Positions 4,115 to 19,498 of a stretch of 20,101 nucleotides of DNA are shown here, one piece after another (position 1 is the stretch's first letter; each line of letters opens with the position of its first letter). The stretch covers positions 1 through 20,101 of IMG/VR virus record IMGVR_UViG_3300017720_000097, one strand, 5' to 3'. Source of the stretch: a virus. The notes under the pieces were generated by a model, which saw only the letters and a list, made by a program, of their open reading frames with translations, was not told where the DNA came from and did no database searches. The position numbers were made by a program, and so were the translations under genes.

Positions 4115-6514
4115 ATGGCAGAAAGAATAGTAAGTCCTGGAGTTTTTACGAGAGAAAAGGACTTGTCATTTCTACCTCAAGGGATTGGCGAAATTGGAGC
4201 AGCATTAATAGGTTCAGCAGTTAAAGGACCAGCATTCGTTCCAACAACAGTATCATCTTTTCAAGAGTTTCAACAAGTATTCGGTGGATTGACAGAAGAT
4301 TCATATCTACCATATACTGCACAAGCTTATTTAGAAGATGCTGGTACTGCAACAATCGTTAGAGTATTAGGAAAAGACGGGTACAAATTAGAAAACCCAG
4401 TAGCATTGACAGTATCATCATCACATGGTGCAAAAGTAGTAGGTGTACTACACCCAACACATGATATCGTATCCGATACAGATGTGTTCATTAAATCAAC
4501 AATTACAGACCACTTAGCAAGTACAGATGTTTCAGCATCAATATTTTCACTAAAGTTATCAGGTTCTGAAGCAGCTGAACATTTTTATTCAGCATCTTTA
4601 AACCCGACTAGTGATAATTATTATACTAAATCATTTGGATTTTCAGCAAGAGGTGCAGAAGATGCATATGTTTATTCAAACTTTAAAACATTCCAATCAG
4701 CATCATTCGCTAAAGCCGGTGAGATTCCTGTAGTAACTATCGCTACAAGTTCAGATATTGATTATGGTAAAGCTTATACTGAAGCATCTACACCATTTAT
4801 TACATCACAAAAAGTTGGTGGTAATACTACTAACTTATTTAAGTTCCATACATTATCACATGGTACGGCAACTAACTACGAATTTAAAATTGGTATCCAA
4901 GATATTAAGCCAGCCGGTTCAGTTCCTGGTTCTGAATATGGTTCATTTACTGTAGTAGTAAGAAGAGTTGACCAAGATAAGATTGCTGGTTCACCATTTG
5001 TAGGTGTAGTTGATTCTGATATCAGACCTAATTTAGTTGAAACCTTTCAAGGTGTTAACTTAGACCCTGATTCACCAAACTACATTGTTAGAGTAATTGG
5101 TGATAAGTATATTACTGTAGATGATGATGGTAAATTATCAACTAATGGTGATTACGCTAACAATTCAGAAAATATTAGAGTTGAAGCAAGTGCAGCAGTA
5201 ATGAACAAAGCAATTGATGAAAGTTTAGTACCTTTCGGATTCGGAGCAATACAAAACCCATTCGGTTCAGCATTCGCATTACCTAATCCATCTTATGTAG
5301 CAGCACAAAAAATTAATGATTCATATAATCCTAAAAGATTTTGGGGATATGATTTTGATTTCGCTGGAACAGATAACAGAAACTTCTTAGCACCAACACC
5401 AAAGGTTGGAGCTAGTGTAGGTACGGCATTCTATTTAGGTGATTACAATCAAGACGCTGGGGCTAACTTCCCATCATCAGCATCACCTAATACATCAGCA
5501 ATTTCATTAAATGATAACGCAACTTCTATTAACTCTAGAAAGTTCTTAGTACCTTTCCAAGGTGGTTTTGATGGATTCAAACCAAATAGAGTTGTTTCTT
5601 TAGGAAACGATATCATAGCAGGAAATTCGCAAGGATATGATTTATCTTCAAACACAGCAGCAGGTACATTAGCATACAGAAAAGCAATAAACGCTGTATC
5701 TAATCCTGATGAATTTGATATCAATATGTTAGTATTACCAGGTGTTATCCACAGATTACACTCTTCAGTAACTACTTTCGCTAAAGATATGTGTGAAGAT
5801 AGACAAGATACATTCTTTGTAATGGATGCATCTGCATGGAGTGATTCAATTTCAACGGCTGTTAACGCAGTTCAAGCATTTGATTCAAACTATGTAGCAT
5901 CTTACTATCCTTGGGTTAAGATACTTAATACAGATAAGAACAAACCAGTATGGGTTCCGCCATCGGTTGTACTTCCAGGCGTTATAGCATTTAACGACCA
6001 GGTTGCCGCTGAATGGTTCGCACCAGCTGGATTGAACAGAGGTGGATTAACTTCAGTAATTGAAGCTAAGACAAGATTAACGAGAGTTGAGAGAGATGCA
6101 CTTTACGAAGGTAGAATGAATCCAATCGCTACGTTCCCTGGTCAAGGTGTTACTGTATTTGGACAGAAAACATTACAAGCTAAACCATCGGCATTGGATA
6201 GAATCAATGTAAGAAGATTGTTAATCGCAGTGAAGAAATTCATCGCATCATCTACTCGTTACTTAGTGTTCGAAAACAACACAGCAGCTACGAGAAATAG
6301 ATTCTTATCAATCGTTAATCCTTATTTAGAATCAATCCAACAAAGACAAGGTTTATACGCATTTAAAGTGAAGATGGATGAAACCAACAACACTCCAGAT
6401 GTAATTGATAGAAACATTATGGTAGGTGAGATATTCTTACAACCAGCAAAAACAGCAGAGTTTATAGTACTTGATTTCAATGTATTACCAACTGGAGCAG
6501 CATTTCCAGAATAG
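4115..6514 (+). CDS. 18: Contractile tail sheath protein, T4 gp18-like
   Basis: 799 residues, longer than T4 gp18 (659). The N-terminus SPGVFTREKDLSF (~6-18) and QEFQQVFGG (~51-59) are typical of sheath proteins. The conserved C-terminal domain (~690-799) has RRLLIAVKKFIASSTRYLVF, NPYLESIQQRQGLYAFKVKMD and a closing segment of the VGEIFLQPAKTAEFIVLDFN type, which forms the inner sheath layer that inserts strands into neighbouring subunits. Extra length lies in the middle (~100-480), where surface-exposed domains of sheath proteins vary. Many copies polymerise around the tube and contract to drive it into the host envelope. It has its own candidate promoter, a strong ribosome-binding site and a terminator after it, so it is effectively a monocistronic high-expression gene. 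Followed by the tube gene as in T4. Confidence 0.95.
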   Translation: MAERIVSPGVFTREKDLSFLPQGIGEIGAALIGSAVKGPAFVPTTVSSFQEFQQVFGGLTEDSYLPYTAQAYLEDAGTATIVRVLGKDGYKLENPVALTVSSSHGAKVVGVLHPTHDIVSDTDVFIKSTITDHLASTDVSASIFSLKLSGSEAAEHFYSASLNPTSDNYYTKSFGFSARGAEDAYVYSNFKTFQSASFAKAGEIPVVTIATSSDIDYGKAYTEASTPFITSQKVGGNTTNLFKFHTLSHGTATNYEFKIGIQDIKPAGSVPGSEYGSFTVVVRRVDQDKIAGSPFVGVVDSDIRPNLVETFQGVNLDPDSPNYIVRVIGDKYITVDDDGKLSTNGDYANNSENIRVEASAAVMNKAIDESLVPFGFGAIQNPFGSAFALPNPSYVAAQKINDSYNPKRFWGYDFDFAGTDNRNFLAPTPKVGASVGTAFYLGDYNQDAGANFPSSASPNTSAISLNDNATSINSRKFLVPFQGGFDGFKPNRVVSLGNDIIAGNSQGYDLSSNTAAGTLAYRKAINAVSNPDEFDINMLVLPGVIHRLHSSVTTFAKDMCEDRQDTFFVMDASAWSDSISTAVNAVQAFDSNYVASYYPWVKILNTDKNKPVWVPPSVVLPGVIAFNDQVAAEWFAPAGLNRGGLTSVIEAKTRLTRVERDALYEGRMNPIATFPGQGVTVFGQKTLQAKPSALDRINVRRLLIAVKKFIASSTRYLVFENNTAATRNRFLSIVNPYLESIQQRQGLYAFKVKMDETNNTPDVIDRNIMVGEIFLQPAKTAEFIVLDFNVLPTGAAFPE

Positions 6515-6608: not shown

Positions 6609-7097
6609 ATGGCACAATTATTAGACCCAACAGAAGTAATGTTTACATCATTCGAACCGAAGATGTCAAACAGATTCATTATGTACATAGAAGGAATTCC
6701 AGCGTACTTAGTGAAAGCCGCTAACAGACCAGAAATAGCAAATGGTAAGGTTACAATCGACCATATCAATGTTAGAAGATATGTAAAAGGAAGAAGTGAG
6801 TGGAGTAGTTTAACTATATCATTATACGACCCAGTAGTTCCATCAGCAGCGCAAGCAGCAATGGAGTGGGTAAGATTACACCACGAATCAGTAACAGGTA
6901 GAGATGGTTACTCCGACTTCTATAAAAAAGATATCACATTTAACAGTTTGGGTCCTGTTGGTGATAAAGTAGAAGAGTGGACGTTAAAAGGAGCTTTCAT
7001 CGAAACAGCAAAATTCTCAGACATGGATTATACTGGTGAAGATTTAGCAACTGTAGATTTAACACTTGCATACGATTACGCAATATTACAATATTAA
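6609..7097 (+). CDS. 19: Tail tube protein, T4 gp19-like
   Basis: 162 residues, essentially the same length as T4 gp19 (163). Typical features are SNRFIMYIEGIPAYLVKAANRP near the N-terminus (region ~20-41, key residues NRF, IEGIP, RP), WSSLTISLYDPV (~65-76), and the acidic C-terminal strands DLATVDLTLAYDYAIL. The protein stacks as hexameric rings to form the inner tube through which DNA passes. It follows the sheath gene, as in T4, and is bracketed by a candidate promoter upstream and the hairpin at 7142-7168 downstream. CGGAGAACATAA before the ATG is a clear ribosome-binding site. Confidence 0.93.
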   Translation: MAQLLDPTEVMFTSFEPKMSNRFIMYIEGIPAYLVKAANRPEIANGKVTIDHINVRRYVKGRSEWSSLTISLYDPVVPSAAQAAMEWVRLHHESVTGRDGYSDFYKKDITFNSLGPVGDKVEEWTLKGAFIETAKFSDMDYTGEDLATVDLTLAYDYAILQY

Positions 7098-7118: not shown

Positions 7119-7141
7119 TATTAGAAATTAAATAATGAGAG

Positions 7142-7168
7142 ACCTCAACAGAAATGTTGAGGTTTTTT
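7142..7168 (+). terminator. Rho-independent terminator after the tail tube gene
   Basis: ACCTCAACA (7142-7150) pairs perfectly with TGTTGAGGT (7155-7163) around a GAAA tetraloop (7151-7154), and TTTTTT occupies 7163-7168. This is a textbook intrinsic terminator 45 bases after the tube stop. Confidence 0.92.
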
Positions 7169-7241: not shown

Positions 7242-8126
7242 ATGAGTAAAGAAAAATTACAAGATGATTACAAAGCACCAGTTTCCAATGAGGATATGGT
7301 GGAGCTCGCTAAACAACAATACGAGCAGAAAAAGGTTTCTGATTACAAATTTCCAACAGAAATCGTAGATTTACCTTCCAAAGGTCTTATATATTCTAAA
7401 GATAATTCTCTATCAACTGGAAAGATAGAGATGAAGTATATGACTGCTAAAGAAGAAGATATCTTAACTACCCAATCTTATATAAAAGATGGTTCAGTAT
7501 TAGATAGATTATTTCAATCTCTTATTATATCAAATGGTGAAGGAACGCCTGTAAAGTATGTAGACCTTACTTTAGGTGATAAAAACGCTATTATGATTGC
7601 AGCTAGAATCTTAGGATATGGTAAAGATTATGAAGTAGAGATTGATGACCCAACACAACCAGGTACAAAACAAAAAGAAACAATTGATTTAACTCAATTT
7701 GAATCAACTGAGTACGATGGTTCAGGACAAACCGAATTGCATAAAAACGAATTTGAGTTTGAATTACCACAATCTAAAAGAAAAGTTACTTTTATGGCAT
7801 TAACTGAAAGTAAGGAAAGAAAAATCAAACATCAATTAGAAGAATCCAAAAGAGCTTCTAGAAAGATGAAGGATAGAACTGATAAACAACTTACCATCAG
7901 ATTAAAAAATACAATTGTATCTGTTGATGATGAAACAGAACAAAAAGCAATCAACCATTTTGTGGATAATGAATTATTTGCGGCCGATTCAAGGGCTCTC
8001 AGAACGCATATAAATAAAGTTATTCCAGATATGGATTTAACATATGAATTTATATCTGAAGAGACCGGGGAAAGGAGAGATATGCTACTGCCTATGGATT
8101 TAGGGTTTTTTTGGCCTCAATCATAG
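7242..8126 (+). CDS. 26: gp26-like baseplate hub / tail assembly chaperone, zero-frame product
   Basis: 294 residues. The segment EIVDLPSKGLIYSKDNSLSTG (~40-60; key residues LPSKG, Y, L..G) followed by KIEMKYMTAKEEDILT and GDKNAIMIAARILGYGKDY is the signature I know from T4_baseplate (gp26-type) proteins of marine T4-like phages. The ~200 N-terminal residues are the conserved part; the C-terminus ends LGFFWPQS. T4 gp26 is counted as a hub component or hub-assembly factor. Here the gene lies two genes before the tape measure, where lambda-type phages have the frameshifting chaperone G/GT, so I infer a tape-measure or hub chaperone role. Just before its stop the gene crosses a run of seven T, and a conserved-looking continuation lies in the +1 frame (8113-8319). 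The ATG at 7242 has only a weak GAGAAA upstream. Confidence 0.8.
   Translation: MSKEKLQDDYKAPVSNEDMVELAKQQYEQKKVSDYKFPTEIVDLPSKGLIYSKDNSLSTGKIEMKYMTAKEEDILTTQSYIKDGSVLDRLFQSLIISNGEGTPVKYVDLTLGDKNAIMIAARILGYGKDYEVEIDDPTQPGTKQKETIDLTQFESTEYDGSGQTELHKNEFEFELPQSKRKVTFMALTESKERKIKHQLEESKRASRKMKDRTDKQLTIRLKNTIVSVDDETEQKAINHFVDNELFAADSRALRTHINKVIPDMDLTYEFISEETGERRDMLLPMDLGFFWPQS
8104..8112 (+). other. Candidate programmed ribosomal frameshift site (GG then seven T)
   Basis: In the zero frame the ribosome reads GGG TTT TTT TGG. A +1 slip of Phe-tRNA at 8109-8111 onto 8110-8112 keeps perfect TTT pairing and resumes at GGC (8113), entering the 68-codon downstream frame. That frame has a TAG at 8101-8103 and the zero frame stops at 8124-8126, so any shift must occur within about 20 bases, and the T run is in that interval. 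A -2 slip gives the same frame; a -1 slip stops after 17 codons and is not useful. Confidence 0.65.
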
Positions 8127-8319
8127 TTATAGAAAGCATTTACACTCTCACATTTTTGATTTGATATTCCACGGAAATGGTGGATTCACTTTTTCAGATG
8201 TTTATAATATGCCTGTCTGGGCTCGTAAATTCTATATTGGTAAAATAGTAGAATGGAAGCAAGAAGAGAAGAAAGCATATGATAAAGAATCTAAAAAAGC
8301 TAAAGCAATAAGAAGATAA
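8113..8319 (+). CDS. Frameshift extension of the gp26-like gene (tail chaperone C-terminal segment)
   Basis: An open stretch of 68 codons starts right after the T run, in the +1 frame relative to 7242-8126, and ends at TAA 8317-8319. It has no ATG until 8209, yet coding-like sequence begins well before that: HSHIFDLIFHGNGG at ~11-24, then FSDVYNMPVWARKFYIGKIVEW (key residues MP, R.FY, K). A short protein with P-V-x-x-R-x-F-Y-x-x-K followed by a Lys/Glu-rich tail is typical of small proteins just upstream of the tape measure in myophages, often fused by frameshift. Fused to residues 1-290 of the upstream gene it would give a 358-residue product. The alternative is an independent short gene starting at TTG 8161 or ATG 8209, or a homopolymer sequencing error that hides one continuous 358-codon gene. 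Confidence 0.7.
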   Translation, partial: GLNHSYRKHLHSHIFDLIFHGNGGFTFSDVYNMPVWARKFYIGKIVEWKQEEKKAYDKESKKAKAIRR

Positions 8320-8322
8320 TAT

Positions 8323-8359
8323 AATACCCAACAGATTTTTTGATGATTTGTTGGGTATT
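8323..8359 (+). terminator. Probable terminator or hairpin between the gp26-like unit and the tape-measure unit
   Basis: AATACCCAACA (8323-8333) pairs perfectly over 11 bp with TGTTGGGTATT (8349-8359), with a 15-base loop. It starts three bases after the stop at 8319. The T-tract after it is weak (TTTCTATATTT), so termination may be partial. The stem's last base is only four bases before motif 7. Confidence 0.65.
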
Positions 8360-8396: not shown

Positions 8397-8636
8397 ATGG
8401 CAAAGATAAAATTATCAGAACTTAAAAAAATGTTCACCGAAGCTGGGTTGGATGAAGGTATTTTTGATATATTCAAAAGTAAAAGTAAAAAACTACATCA
8501 AAAACTAAAAGGAATAGATAGTGATATCGAAAACGTAATCACTTCAGCGCCTGATAAAGCTACACAACAGAAATTAAGAAATCTAAACAATGCTCTTAAA
8601 GCATATGATGCTCAACGAAGAAAAATGGGTAGATAA
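8397..8636 (+). CDS. Small basic helical protein upstream of the tape measure, function unknown
   Basis: 79 residues, Lys-rich, predicted helical throughout, with IKLSELKKMFTEAGLDEGIFDIFK at the N-terminus (region ~4-27; key features: LSEL, then GIFDIF). The C-terminal half has a heptad-like pattern (QKLRNLNNALKAYDAQRRKM). Small proteins with an N-terminal K-L-S/K-E-L-x-x-x-F peptide occur repeatedly in T4-like phages and can be virion-associated or carry a cleavable peptide, but no function is established to my knowledge. It is the first gene of the long unit driven by motif 7 and stops 13 bases before the tape measure. GGGAT lies ~17 bases before the ATG, a poor ribosome-binding site. Confidence 0.75.
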   Translation: MAKIKLSELKKMFTEAGLDEGIFDIFKSKSKKLHQKLKGIDSDIENVITSAPDKATQQKLRNLNNALKAYDAQRRKMGR

Positions 8637-8649
8637 TTAGAAGTAATCT

Positions 8650-11628
8650 ATGGCATCAGAAAAGAAAATAAAAGACCAACAGCGTTTCAACGAATCAGTT
8701 AAGGAAGAACTTAAACTGAGGGAGAAGGAACGTGGTGTGCTTAATTCACTTATTTCATTGGCTAAGGTCAAAGGTAAGATTTCTAACGATGCCAAACAAA
8801 CACAACAGGATTTAGTAGCAAGTTTAACGGAAACCGCTCAATTAGAATCGGAATCTGAAAAAGTTAATGCTCAAATTGAAGCAGTACAAAAAGCTAAATT
8901 AGAATTAATAAAAGAAGCTGAAGAAAAGGGTGAAGCAATAAACGCCCATCTAATAAATCAATTAGATGCAACTGAAGAAATTCTAATGGCAAACAGAGAA
9001 CGAGCTGCCATCAACGATGAATTGATGAATACCACAAAGAATATTCTTGGGTTGGATTCAGAATTAGAACGAGCAATAGCTAAGGGTGGTGTAGCCGCTC
9101 TTGCTATGAACAAAGCATTTGAAAATGTTGGAAAATCGTTATCATCTCACGTTGATGCATTGAAAGATATGGTAACTCAGCAAGGTTTAAGTGTTGGTGA
9201 AGCATTTGCATTAAAAGGTAATATTGATGCTGCCTCAATGAGTGTAACTGGATTCCTATATGGTTCAGACCAAATAGCAGCATCAGCACAAGCAATCACC
9301 GAAGAATATGGTAGTATTAACGCAGCAACTACTGATTTAATAAAAGGTGTTACTGAAGTAGCATCATTAACAGGTGATGCAACAACTGCACTAAAATTAA
9401 CCGAAGCATTTGAATCAGCAGGTGTTGAAGCTGGTGATGTAAAAGATACAATATCTGATATAGCTAAAGAAGCAGGTGTATCAGGTAAAATGGCAGTAAA
9501 AGGTCTTGGTGACCAAATGTTTAGATTGGTTGGTGCTAGTGAAGAAGAATTAAAAACTATCATTGAAGGTAATATTGAACTTCAGAAACGTGGTATGACA
9601 ATGTCTGATATCGAAGCTTTATCTAATAGTATGTTGGATATTGAAACTTCGATGAAAAAAGAAGCTAAGTTAAGAGCTATGACTGGTAAGGATATAGGCG
9701 CAAATGAAATGCGTAACTTAGCTTTAGCAAGACAACAAGCAACTTCAGCAGACGAAAGAAAACGTATTGAAACCCAAATGGCTGATTTGTTAATGGATAA
9801 GGTAGGTTCTGCAGAAGAATTTAATGATTTAAATTTAACAGAACAACGACTTACAGCCGAAGCATATGGCATGTCGGTTCAAGAGTTAACAACTAAAATC
9901 CAAACTGCAGAAAAGCAAAAAGAACTTACTGCTAAATATGGTGAATATGCTGGTTTTGTAGAAGGAGCGCAAGGATTCCTCACATCGAGCGCAAAGATGG
10001 CTGGTTCTATGGCAATGGAAATGGGTAAAGTTGTACTTAAAACTGCTATAATGAACAAAATGATGGGTGGTTCATCTGGAATTGGTAACATATTAGGTAG
10101 TGCAGCTGAATCAGCTAAAGGTTTAGGTAAAAATCTTTTAAACATCGGTAAAGGTGGAATGAAAGATATGGGCCAAAAAATAAAAGGTGGGGTAAAGGGG
10201 TTGTTTACTAAATCCGCCCCAACAGAGAACATACCAAAACCTGAAAAAATGACTGAAACGTTAGGTGATGGTGGTAAAGCAGCAGGTGGTGGTGGAATGA
10301 AAGAAAAATTCCAAGATATGGCTGAAGGTTTGAAAGCTATGGGTGATGGTAAAGTATTTGCTGGTATCGGAGCGGTAGCATTAGCAGGACCTGCTTTTAT
10401 TATAGCACTTCCATCAATTCCATTCTTATTATTTATGGGATTAACTCCATTAAAACAATTAGAAACTAACTTTAGTGGATTGGCAACAGGTCTTAATAGT
10501 ATGGCATCCACATTTATGGGTTCATTGGCTGTTGCAGCATTCGGAATAGCAGCAATTCCATCTATAGCATCAATTCCATTCTTATTATTTATGGGATTAA
10601 CACCATTAGCACAATTAGCACCTAATTTCACATCATTATCAGTAGGATTAACTACTATGGCATCCACATTTATGGGTTCGCTTGCATTAGGAGCATTCGC
10701 AGTAGCAGCTGGGTTAGCAATAGCATCTATTCCATTCTTAATCGCTATATCATTATTAGGAATAGCAGCATCTGCTGGTTTAAGTGCATTGGGGATTGGA
10801 TTAACGGCATTAGGAACGGCAGCCGCTAGTGGATTACCATTCTTAGGAATAGCATTGATAGGGGCATTAGGATTAGCTATGATTCCATTCGCAATCGCAT
10901 TAAATATAGCAACACCAGCAATTGAAGCATTTGGTGGTGTAATAGTTGGGGTAATGGGAGCAATTCCACCAATCATTAGTGCAATCGCAGAAGGATTCGT
11001 AACTATGATGGGGGCATTATCTTTAGAAAATATTGGTGCATTGATGTTATTAGGACCAGCATTGTTATTAGCATCTGTTGGTATGATAGCATTTTCTGCC
11101 GCTATGTTGGTAGGTGGATTAGGTTCATTCTTTGGTGGTGGGATTATAGATGATATATCTGAACTAGCTATGATAGGACCTCAATTAGGTATGGCTGGTG
11201 AAGGATTGGCCGCAATCACAACGAATTTGAGTGAAGTAAGTGGTGTAATAGAAACTCTATCAGAATCACTAAGTACAATGGGTTCAGTTACAGCACCATT
11301 ATATGGAGTTGCAGGTGGGTTATTTAGTATAGCGGGTGGTTTAATATCTATGGCTGGCGCTGGGTTATTAGCACTACCATTATTTGCGGCTCTTGGTGGT
11401 TTAGCAGCTATAGCACCTGTATTAGGTGGGTTAGGTTCATTATTTGGTGGTGGTGATGATGAAGCTTCCAACTCATCAGATAGTGGTGATTCCGATATGA
11501 TAGATTATGATAGGTTGGCATCAGTTTTACAATCACAACCAATAGTATTAACAATCGATGGTAAGGCGGTACAAAAGATAACCGCAGTACAACGTAGACA
11601 GGGTAAAAATGCGAGGAGTTTTAGCTAA
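8650..11628 (+). CDS. Tape measure protein
   Basis: 992 residues. The first ~130 are charged coiled coil (KIKDQQRFNESVKEELKLRE onwards), 130-450 are helical and Ala/Glu/Lys-rich, 450-560 are Gly/Lys/Met-rich, and ~565-935 form a long run of hydrophobic Gly/Ala/Ile/Leu/Phe segments with about ten possible membrane-spanning helices. This is the classic tape-measure layout: a rod that fixes tail length inside the tube and then passes into the host envelope during DNA entry. At the usual ~0.15 nm per residue it predicts a tail of about 150 nm (inference). Residues 589-640 and 641-692 are a tandem 52-residue duplication, with a decaying third copy from 693. The C-terminus (VLTIDGKAVQKITAVQRRQG) is a typical tape-measure tail. 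No lysozyme or peptidase motif is visible. The stop overlaps the next start by one base. Confidence 0.9.
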   Translation: MASEKKIKDQQRFNESVKEELKLREKERGVLNSLISLAKVKGKISNDAKQTQQDLVASLTETAQLESESEKVNAQIEAVQKAKLELIKEAEEKGEAINAHLINQLDATEEILMANRERAAINDELMNTTKNILGLDSELERAIAKGGVAALAMNKAFENVGKSLSSHVDALKDMVTQQGLSVGEAFALKGNIDAASMSVTGFLYGSDQIAASAQAITEEYGSINAATTDLIKGVTEVASLTGDATTALKLTEAFESAGVEAGDVKDTISDIAKEAGVSGKMAVKGLGDQMFRLVGASEEELKTIIEGNIELQKRGMTMSDIEALSNSMLDIETSMKKEAKLRAMTGKDIGANEMRNLALARQQATSADERKRIETQMADLLMDKVGSAEEFNDLNLTEQRLTAEAYGMSVQELTTKIQTAEKQKELTAKYGEYAGFVEGAQGFLTSSAKMAGSMAMEMGKVVLKTAIMNKMMGGSSGIGNILGSAAESAKGLGKNLLNIGKGGMKDMGQKIKGGVKGLFTKSAPTENIPKPEKMTETLGDGGKAAGGGGMKEKFQDMAEGLKAMGDGKVFAGIGAVALAGPAFIIALPSIPFLLFMGLTPLKQLETNFSGLATGLNSMASTFMGSLAVAAFGIAAIPSIASIPFLLFMGLTPLAQLAPNFTSLSVGLTTMASTFMGSLALGAFAVAAGLAIASIPFLIAISLLGIAASAGLSALGIGLTALGTAAASGLPFLGIALIGALGLAMIPFAIALNIATPAIEAFGGVIVGVMGAIPPIISAIAEGFVTMMGALSLENIGALMLLGPALLLASVGMIAFSAAMLVGGLGSFFGGGIIDDISELAMIGPQLGMAGEGLAAITTNLSEVSGVIETLSESLSTMGSVTAPLYGVAGGLFSIAGGLISMAGAGLLALPLFAALGGLAAIAPVLGGLGSLFGGGDDEASNSSDSGDSDMIDYDRLASVLQSQPIVLTIDGKAVQKITAVQRRQGKNARSFS
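10414..10725 (+). repeat. Tandem 156-bp (52-residue) duplication inside the tape measure
   Basis: Copy 1 spans 10414-10569 and copy 2 spans 10570-10725. Both encode SIPFLLFMGLTPL at the start and MASTFMGSLA near residue 30 of the unit. A third, diverged copy begins at 10726 with SIPFL. DNA identity is highest in the first ~37 and in ~20 central bases. Confidence 0.85.
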
Positions 11629-14600
11629 TGGCACTTAAAGATATGAAATCGGATTTATCTAAATTTAGAATGCCAAAGAGTACACCTTTGGAATCTAAAG
11701 AAAGAGTTGATGTTAATAAGAACTTAAATAAAACACCACTTAGTGGGTTGGTAAAAGATGTCCCTGTAAAAACATCGATTTCACCAACAGCTGCAAAGAC
11801 TGGTGTGAATCCTCAAAAAGTAAATCAATCAGAAAAGTTCAAAGGTGAAACAACACCTCAACCTATGGATAACTCAGAAAAGTTCAAAGGTGAAACAACT
11901 CCTAAGCCAATGAGTTTAGAAGAAAGATATTTAGGGCAGACAGACCCAACAATGGTTAACCAATCAGAAAAGTTTAAAGGTGAAACATCACCAAAGGAAG
12001 TTAACCAATCAGAAAAATTTAAAGGTGAAACTACTCCTAAAGAAATGAACAACTCTGAAAACTTCTTAGGTGAAACCTCACCAAAAGAAATGAATAACTC
12101 AGAACAATTCTTAGGTGAAACAACTCCTAAAGAAGCAAAAAACTCAGAACAATTCTTAGGTGAAACATCACCAAAGGAAATGAACAACCAATCTCAGTTC
12201 TTAGGTGAAACCTCACCAAAAGAATCTGATAAGAGTTCTAAGTTCTTAGGTGAAACAACTCCTAAGCCAATGAGTTTAGAAGAAAGGTTCTTAGGACAAA
12301 CATCACCAAATGAGATGAACAACCAATCTCAGTTCTTAGGTGAAACATCTCCAAATGAGATGAACAACCAATCTCAGTTCTTAGGTGAAACAACACCTAC
12401 TGAAGCAGATAAGAGTTCTAAGTTCTTAGGTGAAACAACACCTACTGAAATGAACAATAAAAGTAACTTCTTAGGAGAAACAACTCCTAATGAAATGAAT
12501 ATTCCAAATGGTGAAAAACCTTTAGGAGAAACTACTCCAAATGAATCAGATAGAAGTTCTAAGTTCTTAGGTGAAACAACTCCTGTAGAATCAGATAGAA
12601 GTTCAAAGTTTTTGGGTGAAACATCACCAAATCCAATGAATATTCCAAATGGTGAAAAAGGTTTGGGTGAAACAACACCAATACCAATGAATATTCCAAA
12701 TGGTGAAAAAGGTTTGGGTGAAACAACACCAAATGATTTTTCATTTAAGAAGAAATTAGAAAACGAAGGAAAAGATTTTAAAGAAGTTAATAACTTATTA
12801 GATATTCACTCAGCTGGGTTCAATTCTAAGTTTGGTGGTGTTGAAGCAACTAAGTTTATTGGTGTGAATCCTGATAATACTATATTTGATAGTGCAAACT
12901 CATTATATTCTAATATAAGTGATAATAAGTTTACATTAGGTAAAACATATGGTAGTTCATATAATGATGCTGGTGGTATAAATTCAGGCGAAGAAGGATT
13001 TGGAATTGGTATGGGACATGCCAAAAGACAATCACCATCTTTCTTAGATGAAATGTACAATAAGTTTAATTTAAGAGATGATGCATTTAATTTAGGAACT
13101 GCAGCATTTGCACATCCATTAATTCTTAGAGGTATTCAAAGAAAAGGTATAAGTAAAGGTGAACCACAACGTTGGGGATTCGGAATACCATTAGATGATG
13201 GGTTAATGAGAGGTGGTATTGTTACAGCAGTTGAACGTTCTCTTATAGATGGTATCAGATTAGGTAAGTGGATGATTTCAGTAAATGGGTTACTATGGGG
13301 AATCAAAAACTTAGGATTACAAGCATCTAACTCAAATGTAGAAACTGTAACTGGTAAACGATTAACTAAAGTATGGACACCCGTAAATACACTCGCATCG
13401 GCAGTTGGTGGATTCTTAGGATTACATCCACGTAGACATGGTATATTACCATTACCAGAAGCTGCTAATCCTGAAAAATATGAAACTGTACAAAAAGCTA
13501 AAAAAGTAGCACAAATTGATGATATATCATTAGGTGTTGTGGGTATGGGAAATAGATTAGTTGGATTATACAATGAATCATTCCTTACAATGGGTAGTAT
13601 GAGTACATCTTCTACCTTTAAAGGTACACCATTCCTTAGATTACAAGCACCTGGCGGACCTAATTCTGTATATGGTTTAATTCCTGGTGGAAAAATACCA
13701 ACGAGAGGTGAAGATACTAGATTTGATGTATTTGATGGATTCACAGTTCAAAATCAATACAAACCAGTTGGTACAGACCCTTCAACCGGCCCATCGGCAG
13801 AGGCAAATTTTGGAATTCCATTTGATGAGAGTACAACACCATTAGCAAAGGAAATAAAAGATACAACTGATGAGTATAAACCAATATTTTCACCAGAAGG
13901 ACCTAATAAAGGTAATGATGATACTACGGCAAATGGAAAAGCGGGTAGAATCTACAATGATGAAGAAACATATCCTACTTTAGAAACGGATAGAGAAGAA
14001 ATTAGTGGTATTGGTTTAGATAAAGTTTACACATCAATAAAAGATGGTGGCGAGCTTGATGAAACGAATGAAGTACACAAAAAATACGATACCCCATTTG
14101 AAAAACTAAAAACTACAGATGGTGAATCTCATAACATAGAAAAATTAGAATCATCAGAACTAATTAAAGGATATGAAACGATTGCATATGGTAATATGCC
14201 TGAAAGAGTAGCTGGTGATACTGAAGTAAACGATTTTAGAAGTTTATTAACAGGTGATGAAAGCAAAAGAGCAAGTAAAGCTGGATATGCAGATAATTCA
14301 ATACAATCTAAATTTGGATTTACCAATCCTGGTAAAGTTGGAGCAGATAGAACAGATTACACAACATCTCACGCAGCTGACCCTATCCAATCTGGAGCTA
14401 TAGATGCAGCTGAACAAAATGATTTAGTTAAATTAATATTTGATAAACATGGTGGTGGTTCTAAACTACAATTCAGAGGTACAGTTACTGGTATCACAGA
14501 AACATTCTCACCATCTTGGGAAGGAATGCAATATAATGGTAGAGCTGATTCGGCATTTAAGTATTCATCATTTGAAAGAAGTATAACTTTTAATTTCAAA

Positions 14601-14912
14601 GTTTATCCAACATCCAAAGCTGAATTAAAACCATTATATTCAAAATTACAAAGATTATCTACAATGACAATGCCTACTTATGGTAATGGTACTAAAGGGT
14701 ATGGTGGTATCCTTTTAGATTTTACTTTAGGTAATTTATGGGTTAAACATTTATCATTTATTGATTCGTTATCATACTCATTCTCAGATGATGTACCTTG
14801 GGATATTGATGAAGGAGCATCTATGGGTATTGATGTAGCAATAGGATTGAAATTACTAAGTAATGTAGTACCAGAATACAATTCAAAGGTTTACGATTTG
14901 GGTGGGATATAA
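11628..14912 (+). CDS. Large baseplate/tail structural protein with 20 GETTP repeats and a C-terminal tail-tube-initiator-like domain
   Basis: 1094 residues. 1-67: polar N-terminus. 68-371: twenty copies of a 15-residue repeat (consensus S-x-x-F-L-G-E-T-T/S-P-x-E-M-N-N). 372-900: large domain of unknown fold with aromatic/Gly-rich segments such as HPLILRGIQRKG and LIDGIRLGKWMISVNGLLWG. ~955-1094: FRGTVTGITETFSPSWEG, then FERSITFNFKVYPTSKAEL and LGNLWVKHLSFIDSLSYSF; this is the pattern of baseplate proteins of the gp48/gp54 or LysM-associated type that seat the tube on the hub. It lies between tape measure and gp53-like genes, which supports a baseplate role. Its start overlaps the tape-measure stop (TAATG). 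Calling it a tube-initiator is inference from the C-terminal pattern; other baseplate roles are possible. Confidence 0.68.
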   Translation: MALKDMKSDLSKFRMPKSTPLESKERVDVNKNLNKTPLSGLVKDVPVKTSISPTAAKTGVNPQKVNQSEKFKGETTPQPMDNSEKFKGETTPKPMSLEERYLGQTDPTMVNQSEKFKGETSPKEVNQSEKFKGETTPKEMNNSENFLGETSPKEMNNSEQFLGETTPKEAKNSEQFLGETSPKEMNNQSQFLGETSPKESDKSSKFLGETTPKPMSLEERFLGQTSPNEMNNQSQFLGETSPNEMNNQSQFLGETTPTEADKSSKFLGETTPTEMNNKSNFLGETTPNEMNIPNGEKPLGETTPNESDRSSKFLGETTPVESDRSSKFLGETSPNPMNIPNGEKGLGETTPIPMNIPNGEKGLGETTPNDFSFKKKLENEGKDFKEVNNLLDIHSAGFNSKFGGVEATKFIGVNPDNTIFDSANSLYSNISDNKFTLGKTYGSSYNDAGGINSGEEGFGIGMGHAKRQSPSFLDEMYNKFNLRDDAFNLGTAAFAHPLILRGIQRKGISKGEPQRWGFGIPLDDGLMRGGIVTAVERSLIDGIRLGKWMISVNGLLWGIKNLGLQASNSNVETVTGKRLTKVWTPVNTLASAVGGFLGLHPRRHGILPLPEAANPEKYETVQKAKKVAQIDDISLGVVGMGNRLVGLYNESFLTMGSMSTSSTFKGTPFLRLQAPGGPNSVYGLIPGGKIPTRGEDTRFDVFDGFTVQNQYKPVGTDPSTGPSAEANFGIPFDESTTPLAKEIKDTTDEYKPIFSPEGPNKGNDDTTANGKAGRIYNDEETYPTLETDREEISGIGLDKVYTSIKDGGELDETNEVHKKYDTPFEKLKTTDGESHNIEKLESSELIKGYETIAYGNMPERVAGDTEVNDFRSLLTGDESKRASKAGYADNSIQSKFGFTNPGKVGADRTDYTTSHAADPIQSGAIDAAEQNDLVKLIFDKHGGGSKLQFRGTVTGITETFSPSWEGMQYNGRADSAFKYSSFERSITFNFKVYPTSKAELKPLYSKLQRLSTMTMPTYGNGTKGYGGILLDFTLGNLWVKHLSFIDSLSYSFSDDVPWDIDEGASMGIDVAIGLKLLSNVVPEYNSKVYDLGGI
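11829..12740 (+). repeat. In-frame 45-bp tandem repeat array, 20 units
   Basis: Units are 45 bp except two of 51 bp that encode a PNGEK insertion (residues 293-309 and 340-356). All keep the frame. Nearly every unit contains TTAGGTGAAAC or AAAGGTGAAAC followed by AAC/TCAC/TCC and CCT/CCA. Adjacent units such as those at 12327-12371 are almost identical in DNA, which indicates recent expansion or gene conversion. The array encodes residues 68-371 of the baseplate protein. Confidence 0.95.
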
Positions 14913-18234: not shown

Positions 18235-18271
18235 ATATATGATTGAATTTCTTAAAGAAGGAAATATCTCA

Positions 18272-19498
18272 ATGGATAAGGTATATGTTCACCCTATATG
18301 GGAGAGCATATCGGTACACCCACATAATGATGGGTTATCTTTGTTGTATATATACGATATAGAAGGTGATAGAGAGGTTCTAATCAACTTAAACAATATC
18401 GACAACCATACAACCACATTAGATAAATTCACCTTTAAATTCAACGAATCCTATGTTTATGATAACAAATCACTTCTAAACATTCTTCAGCTAGATAACT
18501 CAGTTGATGCAGGATTAATAAAGTATTTACAATCGAATTCCCAACTCAAATCTACCCCAACACCAACACATACGTTTTATGAACGTAGATTCAGTTCCTT
18601 TAAAGGGGTAAACAACCTTATTCCAATATCTAAACATATAGAAACCATCAGAGATATTAGAAACGAATTCCTATCGTATTACGATTTGGGTTGGGATTCG
18701 GATTGTGTGAAGAAATTTGAAAATTTCTATATTAAGTCATTACATAAAGTAGAACAAAATGGGATACATACTACAAATGGGTTAGAGTGGACTCAATATC
18801 ACCCATTCACAACAACATCACGTCCATCAAACAACTTTGGTGGGGTTAATTATGCTGCACTTAATAAAGATGATGGTAGTAGAGATAGATTTGTTAGTAG
18901 GTTCGAAGGGGGTAAACTGATTCAATTTGATTATGATGCTTATCATCCTCGTATTATCGGTAAGATGGTAGATGAACCTATTCCGATGGATGTAAGTGGA
19001 CACCAAACCTTAGCAGATATGTATGGAGTACCTTACAACGATTCAAAAGCAATTACATTCCGACAATTGTATGGTGGAGTACAATCGGAATATCTACATA
19101 TTCCGTTGTTCTCTAAAGTTTCACACAAAATTGATAAAATGTGGATGGAATTCAATCGTAGAGGGTATGTAACTACTCCATTAGGTAGAAAGTTATCAAA
19201 ATCTAACTTAAACGATATGAATGCTAACAAACTATTTAATTATATGTTACAGGCAACTGAAACAGAACTAAATATGAAGATTTTGAGTAAGGTTATGGAG
19301 TTTTTGAAAGATAAACGTTCAAAAATGGTTTTATATACTTATGATTCATATTTATTGGATATACACTCTGATGATTTTAACAGTTTACAGAATTTAAAGA
19401 TACTTATAGAAGGGAATGGATTTCCTACAAAAATAGAAATCGGAGATAGATATTCTGAGATGAAATCTATAGATATAAAACAAATGGATAAGATATGA
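18272..19498 (+). CDS. Divergent family A DNA polymerase domain, no 3'-5' exonuclease
   Basis: 408 residues from ATG 18272. The frame also has ATG at 18239, but that lies at the predicted transcription start, whereas 18272 has AAGAAGGAAA before it. From ~176, TTTSRPSNN aligns with TATGRLSS of Pol I. Motif A is DYDAYHPR (D220; Pol I D705), with His in place of the Pol I steric-gate Glu710. Motif B keeps K259, F263 and Y267-G268 (Pol I K758, F762, Y766) but lacks Arg754. Motif C is YDS with D358 (Pol I D882) and Ser instead of Glu883. Both metal-binding aspartates are therefore present. The ~200 residues before motif A leave room for the thumb but not for an exonuclease domain, and no DxE exonuclease motif is seen. 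Role: template-directed DNA synthesis, replicative or repair; activity is unproven. The stop overlaps the next start as ATGA. Confidence 0.8.
   Translation: MDKVYVHPIWESISVHPHNDGLSLLYIYDIEGDREVLINLNNIDNHTTTLDKFTFKFNESYVYDNKSLLNILQLDNSVDAGLIKYLQSNSQLKSTPTPTHTFYERRFSSFKGVNNLIPISKHIETIRDIRNEFLSYYDLGWDSDCVKKFENFYIKSLHKVEQNGIHTTNGLEWTQYHPFTTTSRPSNNFGGVNYAALNKDDGSRDRFVSRFEGGKLIQFDYDAYHPRIIGKMVDEPIPMDVSGHQTLADMYGVPYNDSKAITFRQLYGGVQSEYLHIPLFSKVSHKIDKMWMEFNRRGYVTTPLGRKLSKSNLNDMNANKLFNYMLQATETELNMKILSKVMEFLKDKRSKMVLYTYDSYLLDIHSDDFNSLQNLKILIEGNGFPTKIEIGDRYSEMKSIDIKQMDKI

Follow-up and report, generated by a model that had tools for sequence, protein, structure and literature searches.

A T4-type tail assembly chaperone gene family with probable programmed +1 ribosomal frameshifting at UUU-Y

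Frameshifts of -1 in tail assembly chaperone genes were reportedly described by Xu, Hendrix and Duda in 2004. Lambda G/GT and other -1 systems of this kind have been reviewed, and frameshifting in the tail chaperone gene has been described as conserved in long-tailed phages except T4 (PMC5009743). The T4 proteins gp26 and gp51 both belong to PF12322, with gp51 carrying an extra C-terminal part, and Vladimirov et al. 2022 recognised the pair as tail assembly chaperones (as cited in PMC10885494); where the PRFect paper cites the same work, it states that in some T4-like phages a short gene and a longer fusion gene replace the frameshift. According to a 2025 paper, the chaperone genes of T4-like phages are known to carry poly-T -1 signals, and +1 frameshifting has been proposed in the tail chaperone genes of the haloviruses HSTV-2 and HF1-like (PMC5009743; PMC7230728). 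With the T4 chaperones published, poly-T -1 sites reported and halovirus +1 shifts proposed, the kind of system considered here is therefore known. A +1 shift is also established for PA-X of influenza A, where mass spectrometry located it at UCC_UUU_CGU; a single Phe-tRNA reads both UUU and UUC, with a preference for UUC, and the E-site codon is important (PMC3498833).

The window analysed here is a stretch of 20,101 nucleotides from a marine relative of T4, the virus record IMGVR_UViG_3300017720_000097 (Table 1), for which site conservation, conservation of the +1 extension, chaperone fold and gene position were computed. On direct reading, its 294-codon chaperone gene ends TTA (8100), GGG (8103), TTT (8106), TTT (8109), TGG (8112), CCT (8115), CAA (8118), TCA (8121) and TAG (8124). 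In the +1 frame, a TAG at 8101-8103 is followed by an open stretch over 8104-8316 and then by TAA at 8317-8319; the first ATG of this frame lies at 8209 and its first alternative start, TTG, at 8161. Because of this upstream stop and the late ATG, a change of frame is confined to 8104-8123, an interval that contains the sole run of seven T on the + strand of the window. An earlier note had proposed a programmed frameshift at this run, and its coordinates, codons and frames for 7242-8319 agree with the sequence; the stops and starts of both frames likewise confirm its junction interval with the seven T. The reading favoured here, with a probability of roughly 0.86, is that programmed +1 ribosomal frameshifting at UUU-Y yields two forms of a T4-type tail assembly chaperone.

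Table 1. Coordinates of the chaperone gene, its putative shift site and extension, and neighbouring features in the window.
Feature	Position	Strand	Basis
Tail sheath gene	4115..6514	+	Pfam Phage_sheath_1, E 7e-16; phrog_23
Tail tube protein gene, upstream neighbour	6609..7097	+	phrog_4542 tail tube, E 6e-23
Terminator-like hairpin before chaperone gene	7137..7168	+	3 found in region, 0.6 expected
Gene for the short tail assembly chaperone (TAC-N, gp26-like), 294 codons, read by ordinary translation	7242..8126	+	ORF; relatives match phrog_150 'baseplate hub'; AF2 model similar to YqbN 3KLU and HK97 2OB9
TAG closing the +1 frame upstream of the putative shift	8101..8103	+	Sequence
Putative shift site TTT TTT TGG (zero frame), T7 = 8106-8112	8106..8114	+	Site kept in 133 clusters, always with in-frame TTT-Y
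+1-frame extension, 68 codons plus TAA, putative gp51-like C-terminal part of long chaperone (TAC-NC)	8113..8319	+	dN/dS; entropy phase flip; profile match to cyanophage gp51-like extension; phrog_634 weak
Zero-frame stop TAG soon after the site	8124..8126	+	Stop 3-6 codons past site in 133/133 clusters
Terminator-like hairpin directly after extension	8323..8359	+	3 found in region, 0.6 expected
Downstream neighbour, probable tape measure gene encoding 992 aa	8650..11628	+	Position and length; immuto counterpart annotated tail tape measure

In the proposed mechanism, the majority of ribosomes would terminate at the end of TTT TTT TGG CCT CAA TCA TAG and so produce the short form (TAC-N). A minority would pause with Phe-tRNA on UUU, move +1 onto UUU (UUC in some relatives) and decode 68 further codons, which would yield the long form (TAC-NC). 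If the two forms act as lambda G/GT do, the tape measure protein would be coated by many copies of the short form and few of the long one, whose extension would recruit tail tube subunits. We infer the occurrence of shifting, its level and the role of the extension, as well as the codon that slips, which may be 8106-8108 or 8109-8111. A slip of Phe-tRNA from 8109-8111 to 8110-8112, as had been suggested, is thus supported as a slip, but 8106-8108 is also an eligible codon. The predicted frame-spanning peptide of Microcystis phage Mel-JY01 would be VNFFGLSNEYR, and that of Flavobacterium phage immuto would be GVSFFGLTPEYR for +1 at the first codon or GVSFLGLTPEYR for +1 at the second, beside a zero-frame end SFLWPDAGV.

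The site recurs throughout the relatives of the window gene. Scanning viral contigs with this gene returned 80 loci of 47-100% identity, and TTTTTTTGGCC stands at the same codons in all of these homologues whose end is complete, even at 47% protein identity; the zero-frame stop follows a few codons past the site, and the +1 extension is conserved wherever downstream sequence suffices. The set was widened by scans with immuto, Mel-JY01, a 484 kb huge phage and Listeria phage LIS04, and the extension profile fell in the +1 frame in all groups from these scans except two loci. In approximately 250 related loci, C or T comes after an in-frame TTT, the zero frame ends 3-6 codons on and the +1 extension is conserved; clustering at about 88% nucleotide identity yielded 133 +1 groups. 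Their sites are TTT TTT TGG (98 clusters), TTT CTT TGG (21), TTC TTT TGG (4), CTT TTT TGG (3), TTT CTA TGG (2) and TTT TTT TAC (2), with TTT CTT TAC, TTT CTA TTC and TTT TTT CGT also present. Beyond these clusters, LIS04 has TTT TTT AGT, Streptococcus phage GXN1 has TTC TTT CGT and SP-15 has TTT TTT CAC. An in-frame UUU followed by C or U, with the extension in +1, is found in the 133 clusters as well as in LIS04, GXN1 and the locus L175. All sites share an in-frame TTT with C or T as the next base, T7 being the case in which both adjacent codons qualify. Given this recurrence in homologues, and structured variants that keep TTT-Y in wider relatives, the site and the open +1 frame are not products of chance or sequencing error. 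In particular, a true run of six T, which would make one continuous gene, is excluded by T7 in many independent contigs and by variant sites at the same place in others. Of the features singled out for an alignment, a zero-frame stop 3-6 codons past the site and the extension are kept in all 133 clusters; the T run and the TGG vary in some sites. Conversely, the gp26-type gene of huge phage LR756511 (L167) lacks a +1 extension; a -1 frame is open past its stop, and no slippery heptamer was recognised there (4700-4900).

Composition around the site is skewed. TTC is avoided at the Phe codons of the site (0/105 at codon 2 versus ~24% expected; the clusters are related, so independence is overstated and p-values are indicative only). 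In 122/133 clusters, C or G is the last base of the codon that precedes the slip site, versus a C+G share of ~25% at third positions, where A and T dominate; this could reflect an E-site effect and avoidance of a -1 heptamer. GGG precedes the site in the window, and ACC, AGC, AAC and others do so in relatives. The published annotations of Mel-JY01 (L081, 4833-5069) and immuto (L082, 4839-4949) miss the frameshift, presenting the extension as a 'hypothetical protein' with an arbitrary start or trimming it to a fragment.

Selection changes frame at the site. Comparison of 1108 cluster pairs of moderate divergence gave, for extension codons 1-24, a dN/dS of 0.14 when read in the +1 frame and of 1.29 and 2.17 when read in the other two, so that the purifying selection on which the frameshift proposal depends is present. 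Entropy at zero-frame codon positions 1, 2 and 3 is 1.28/1.15/1.76 bits upstream of the site and 1.53/1.30/0.95 bits downstream; the most variable position thus moves from 3 to 1, and this shift of pattern implies that the reading phase changes by +1 there. Ahead of the site, constraint is confined to the zero frame. As in G/GT-type systems, the second ORF lies in another frame, lacks a start of its own, is under selection and is conserved together with the shift site.

The position of the gene, between the major tail tube gene and the probable tape measure gene, is also that of G/GT-type systems, and the same order is found in immuto. The ORF at 8650-11628 has no family match of its own. The extension had been placed just upstream of the tape measure gene; the order is correct, but a 79-codon ORF (8397-8636), with only weak, chance-level family matches, intervenes. 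The chaperone gene and its extension are bracketed by two strong terminator-like hairpins, which suggests that they form a transcription unit of their own between the tube and tape measure genes. TATATTTATA occurs four times without mismatch in the window (6572, 7109, 7189 and 8362), each time in an intergenic stretch around the tube, chaperone and tape measure genes; its reverse complement contains TATAAATA, which is T4 late promoter-like, with a one-mismatch total within chance. Further downstream, the 1094-aa protein that follows the tape measure (11628-14912) carries many near-copies of a short NNSEQFLGETTPKE-like motif in its first 400 residues, and right after the tail genes a 419-aa ORF (18239-19498) resembles by eye part of a family A DNA polymerase (RLIQFDYDAYHPRI and RQLYGG motifs).

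Structural modelling indicates a tail-assembly-chaperone fold in the window protein. The AF2 model of the fused protein has an overall mean of 84.6 and is confident over the short form; the extension, modelled without an alignment, is of low confidence (pLDDT 47-73). The best matches among solved structures are YqbN (3KLU, Z 5.7 over 81 residues) and the HK97 tail assembly chaperone (2OB9, Z 5.5 over 91), moderate scores that cover the N-terminal third only, and the remaining matches reach Z 3.2 or less. Viral-model matches include the SP-15 'baseplate hub subunit' (E 5e-18, among the top) and T4-like 'baseplate hub assembly' proteins. The window chaperone has no match in Pfam or to phrog_150, and the window extension none in Pfam; relatives do match phrog_150, the T4 gp26 family (Mel-JY01 9e-12, immuto 8e-9, LIS04 5e-22, GXN1 2e-25). 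Compared as profiles, the +1 clade chaperones match those of cyanophages (prob 75, E 2.5e-5). The window extension alone matches phrog_634 weakly (E 0.016). The +1 clade extensions match cyanophage gp51-like extensions (prob 93.5, E 2.3e-7), which in turn match the C-terminus of T4 gp51 (E 3.6e-7); +1 clade extensions and T4 gp51 gave no direct match in profile comparison. Sequence similarity thus relates the extension to the C-terminal part of T4 gp51 through the cyanophage extension. The suggestion that T4 gp26-type proteins are the counterpart of G/GT chaperones had already been published, as far as the citing papers indicate (Vladimirov, Gautam and Davidson 2022).

A second branch of the family carries its extension in the -1 frame. 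Syn9 has this arrangement at T TTT TTC; phiN3, phiAS5, P-SSM2, Melnitz, Milchi and Rhizobium and Vibrio phages also have a -1 arrangement, and the extension lies in -1 in 80/80 scored cyanophage-type loci. The base before the run is T in 69/69 cyanophage clusters and in 0/101 TTTTTT-type sites of the +1 clade, which therefore lacks the -1 heptamer X XXY YYZ, with T before the run and a -1 extension. A tree splits the +1 branch from the -1 branch with support 100/99; XacN1, which is -1, forms a long branch of unsure placement beside the +1 clade, and the long-branched T4 gp26/gp51 pair falls among the -1 phages. Taken together, one homologous family probably reads the same poly-T site in opposite directions: -1 at T TTT TTC in cyanophages, KVP40-like and Rhizobium phages, with the T4 duplication arising within this branch, and +1 at S TTT YTW in marine, Flavobacterium, Microcystis, huge and SP-15-like phages. 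One flanking base and a one-base indel would determine the sign.

The described systems each share part of this arrangement. Lambda G/GT has the gene position between tube and tape measure and the chaperone fold in common with the window; however, it shifts -1 at X XXY YYZ, whereas the +1 clade would shift +1 at TTT-Y with no T before the run. T4 gp26/gp51 share the gp26-type domain in a short and a long protein and the gp51-type C-terminal extension, but are two separate, divergent genes, where the window has one gene and a putative frameshift. The gp26/gp51 systems of cyanophages, KVP40-like phages and Rhizobium phage (Syn9, P-SSM2, phiN3) share the gp51-like extension after gp26, in another frame, and the poly-T site; their extension is -1 at T TTT TTC/T/G, in contrast to +1 in the window clade. 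The HF1-like site TTT-CGC is a TTT-Y site as in the +1 clade; the haloviruses are archaeal viruses with few genomes. PA-X has the +1 slip of Phe-tRNA on UUU-Y that is proposed for the +1 clade, although it involves a eukaryotic ribosome and a rare CGU in the A site; GXN1 also has TTT CGT, and most +1 members have TTT YTW.

Alternatives to a +1 slip would have to join the frames otherwise or do without joining them. A -2 slip, established in phage Mu, had been left open beside +1: Phe-tRNA would move from 8109-8111 back to 8107-8109, ending in the same frame and giving the same two products with one extra Phe in the fusion (spanning peptides VNFFFGLSNEYR in Mel-JY01 and GVSFLFGLTPEYR in immuto). 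Full re-pairing at -2 is possible at the T7 of the window itself, but fails at TTC TTT TGG (4 clusters) and at TTC TTT CGT in GXN1, and at TTT CTT and TTT CTA it requires a first-position G-U or U-C pair. Whatever the type of site, re-pairing at +1 takes TTT to TTY in the standard way, and for the TTT CTT, TTT CTA and TTC TTT variants +1 alone is fully standard; a TTT in the first codon with C or T next likewise suits +1. Re-pairing two bases back in all members, as in a Mu-type shift, is thus absent, and the comparative data make -2 unlikely. The same variants (TTT CTT TGG, TTT CTA TGG, TTC TTT TGG) break the T run and hence also argue against slippage of RNA polymerase on T7, by which part of the mRNA would carry six (or nine) U and join the ORFs in the transcript. 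Most members have the homopolymer of seven, yet seven T is short for transcriptional slippage, and in 29/133 clusters the run at the site is four T or fewer (three in 25, four in 4) while the extension frame is unchanged, leaving this explanation scarcely credible.

That the extension is a separate gene with its own start codon inside the chaperone gene is very improbable too, even though the annotators of Mel-JY01 placed a start upstream of the site and two loci have an ATG just past the zero-frame stop. From the preceding stop to about extension codon 20-24, ATG is absent from the +1 frame in 72/133 clusters; ATG, GTG and TTG are all absent, from the upstream +1 stop through about codon 24, in 29/133, and an ATG with a Shine-Dalgarno-like sequence occurs in only 6/133. 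A shared start codon therefore cannot explain the extension. Furthermore, constraint upstream of the site on the zero frame alone, and a conserved peptide that begins at FFGL, i.e. at the site, speak against it. The two loci mentioned, L185 and L191, are the only ones among ~330 in which the extension forms a separate ATG-started gene, lying in another frame a few bases after the zero-frame stop (2670-2800 in both). They fall inside the +1 clade and have TTC where others have TTT (TTC TTG TAT and TTC CTT TGG respectively), and for these reasons look like derived replacements. Read from their sequences, they would be a natural control in which TTT is lost once the frameshift is no longer needed. 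A fused or duplicated chaperone copy in L185 (a 188 kb record) was ruled out, with one gp26-type and one extension match only; since the extension is a separate ORF in these loci and no fused copy was found, the gp51-like extension may function unfused.

Among candidate stimulators of the +1 slip, downstream RNA structure was dropped: single folds gave z +0.9 to -2.1, and neither a consensus pair nor a conserved structure was found. A prfB-type Shine-Dalgarno stimulator is not general, because the GGG of the window is replaced by other codons in relatives, among which no constant upstream Shine-Dalgarno-like element was found. None of the candidate A-site codons stands out clearly as rare in the window (CTT 9.0, CTA 7.2, TGG 6.8 and TTT 30.4 per 1000).

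What looks new, leaving aside priority over Vladimirov et al. 2022 as represented in the papers citing it, is the size of the +1 clade and its position opposite a -1 clade of one gene family. The proposal is easily tested, since the site is tiny and apparently independent of RNA structure, and cultured phages are available. Databases lack or mis-annotate the long chaperones and gp51-like pieces of these phages, and the two-gene solution of T4 was explained only in 2022. If the opposite readings of one site are correct, bacterial viruses would here gain a first broad clade of tail chaperones with a +1 shift, and the statement that the frameshift is conserved except in T4 would become a traceable history. 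The natural series of -1, +1, duplication and separate ATG-started gene would make it possible to study what determines the direction of frameshifting and its extent.
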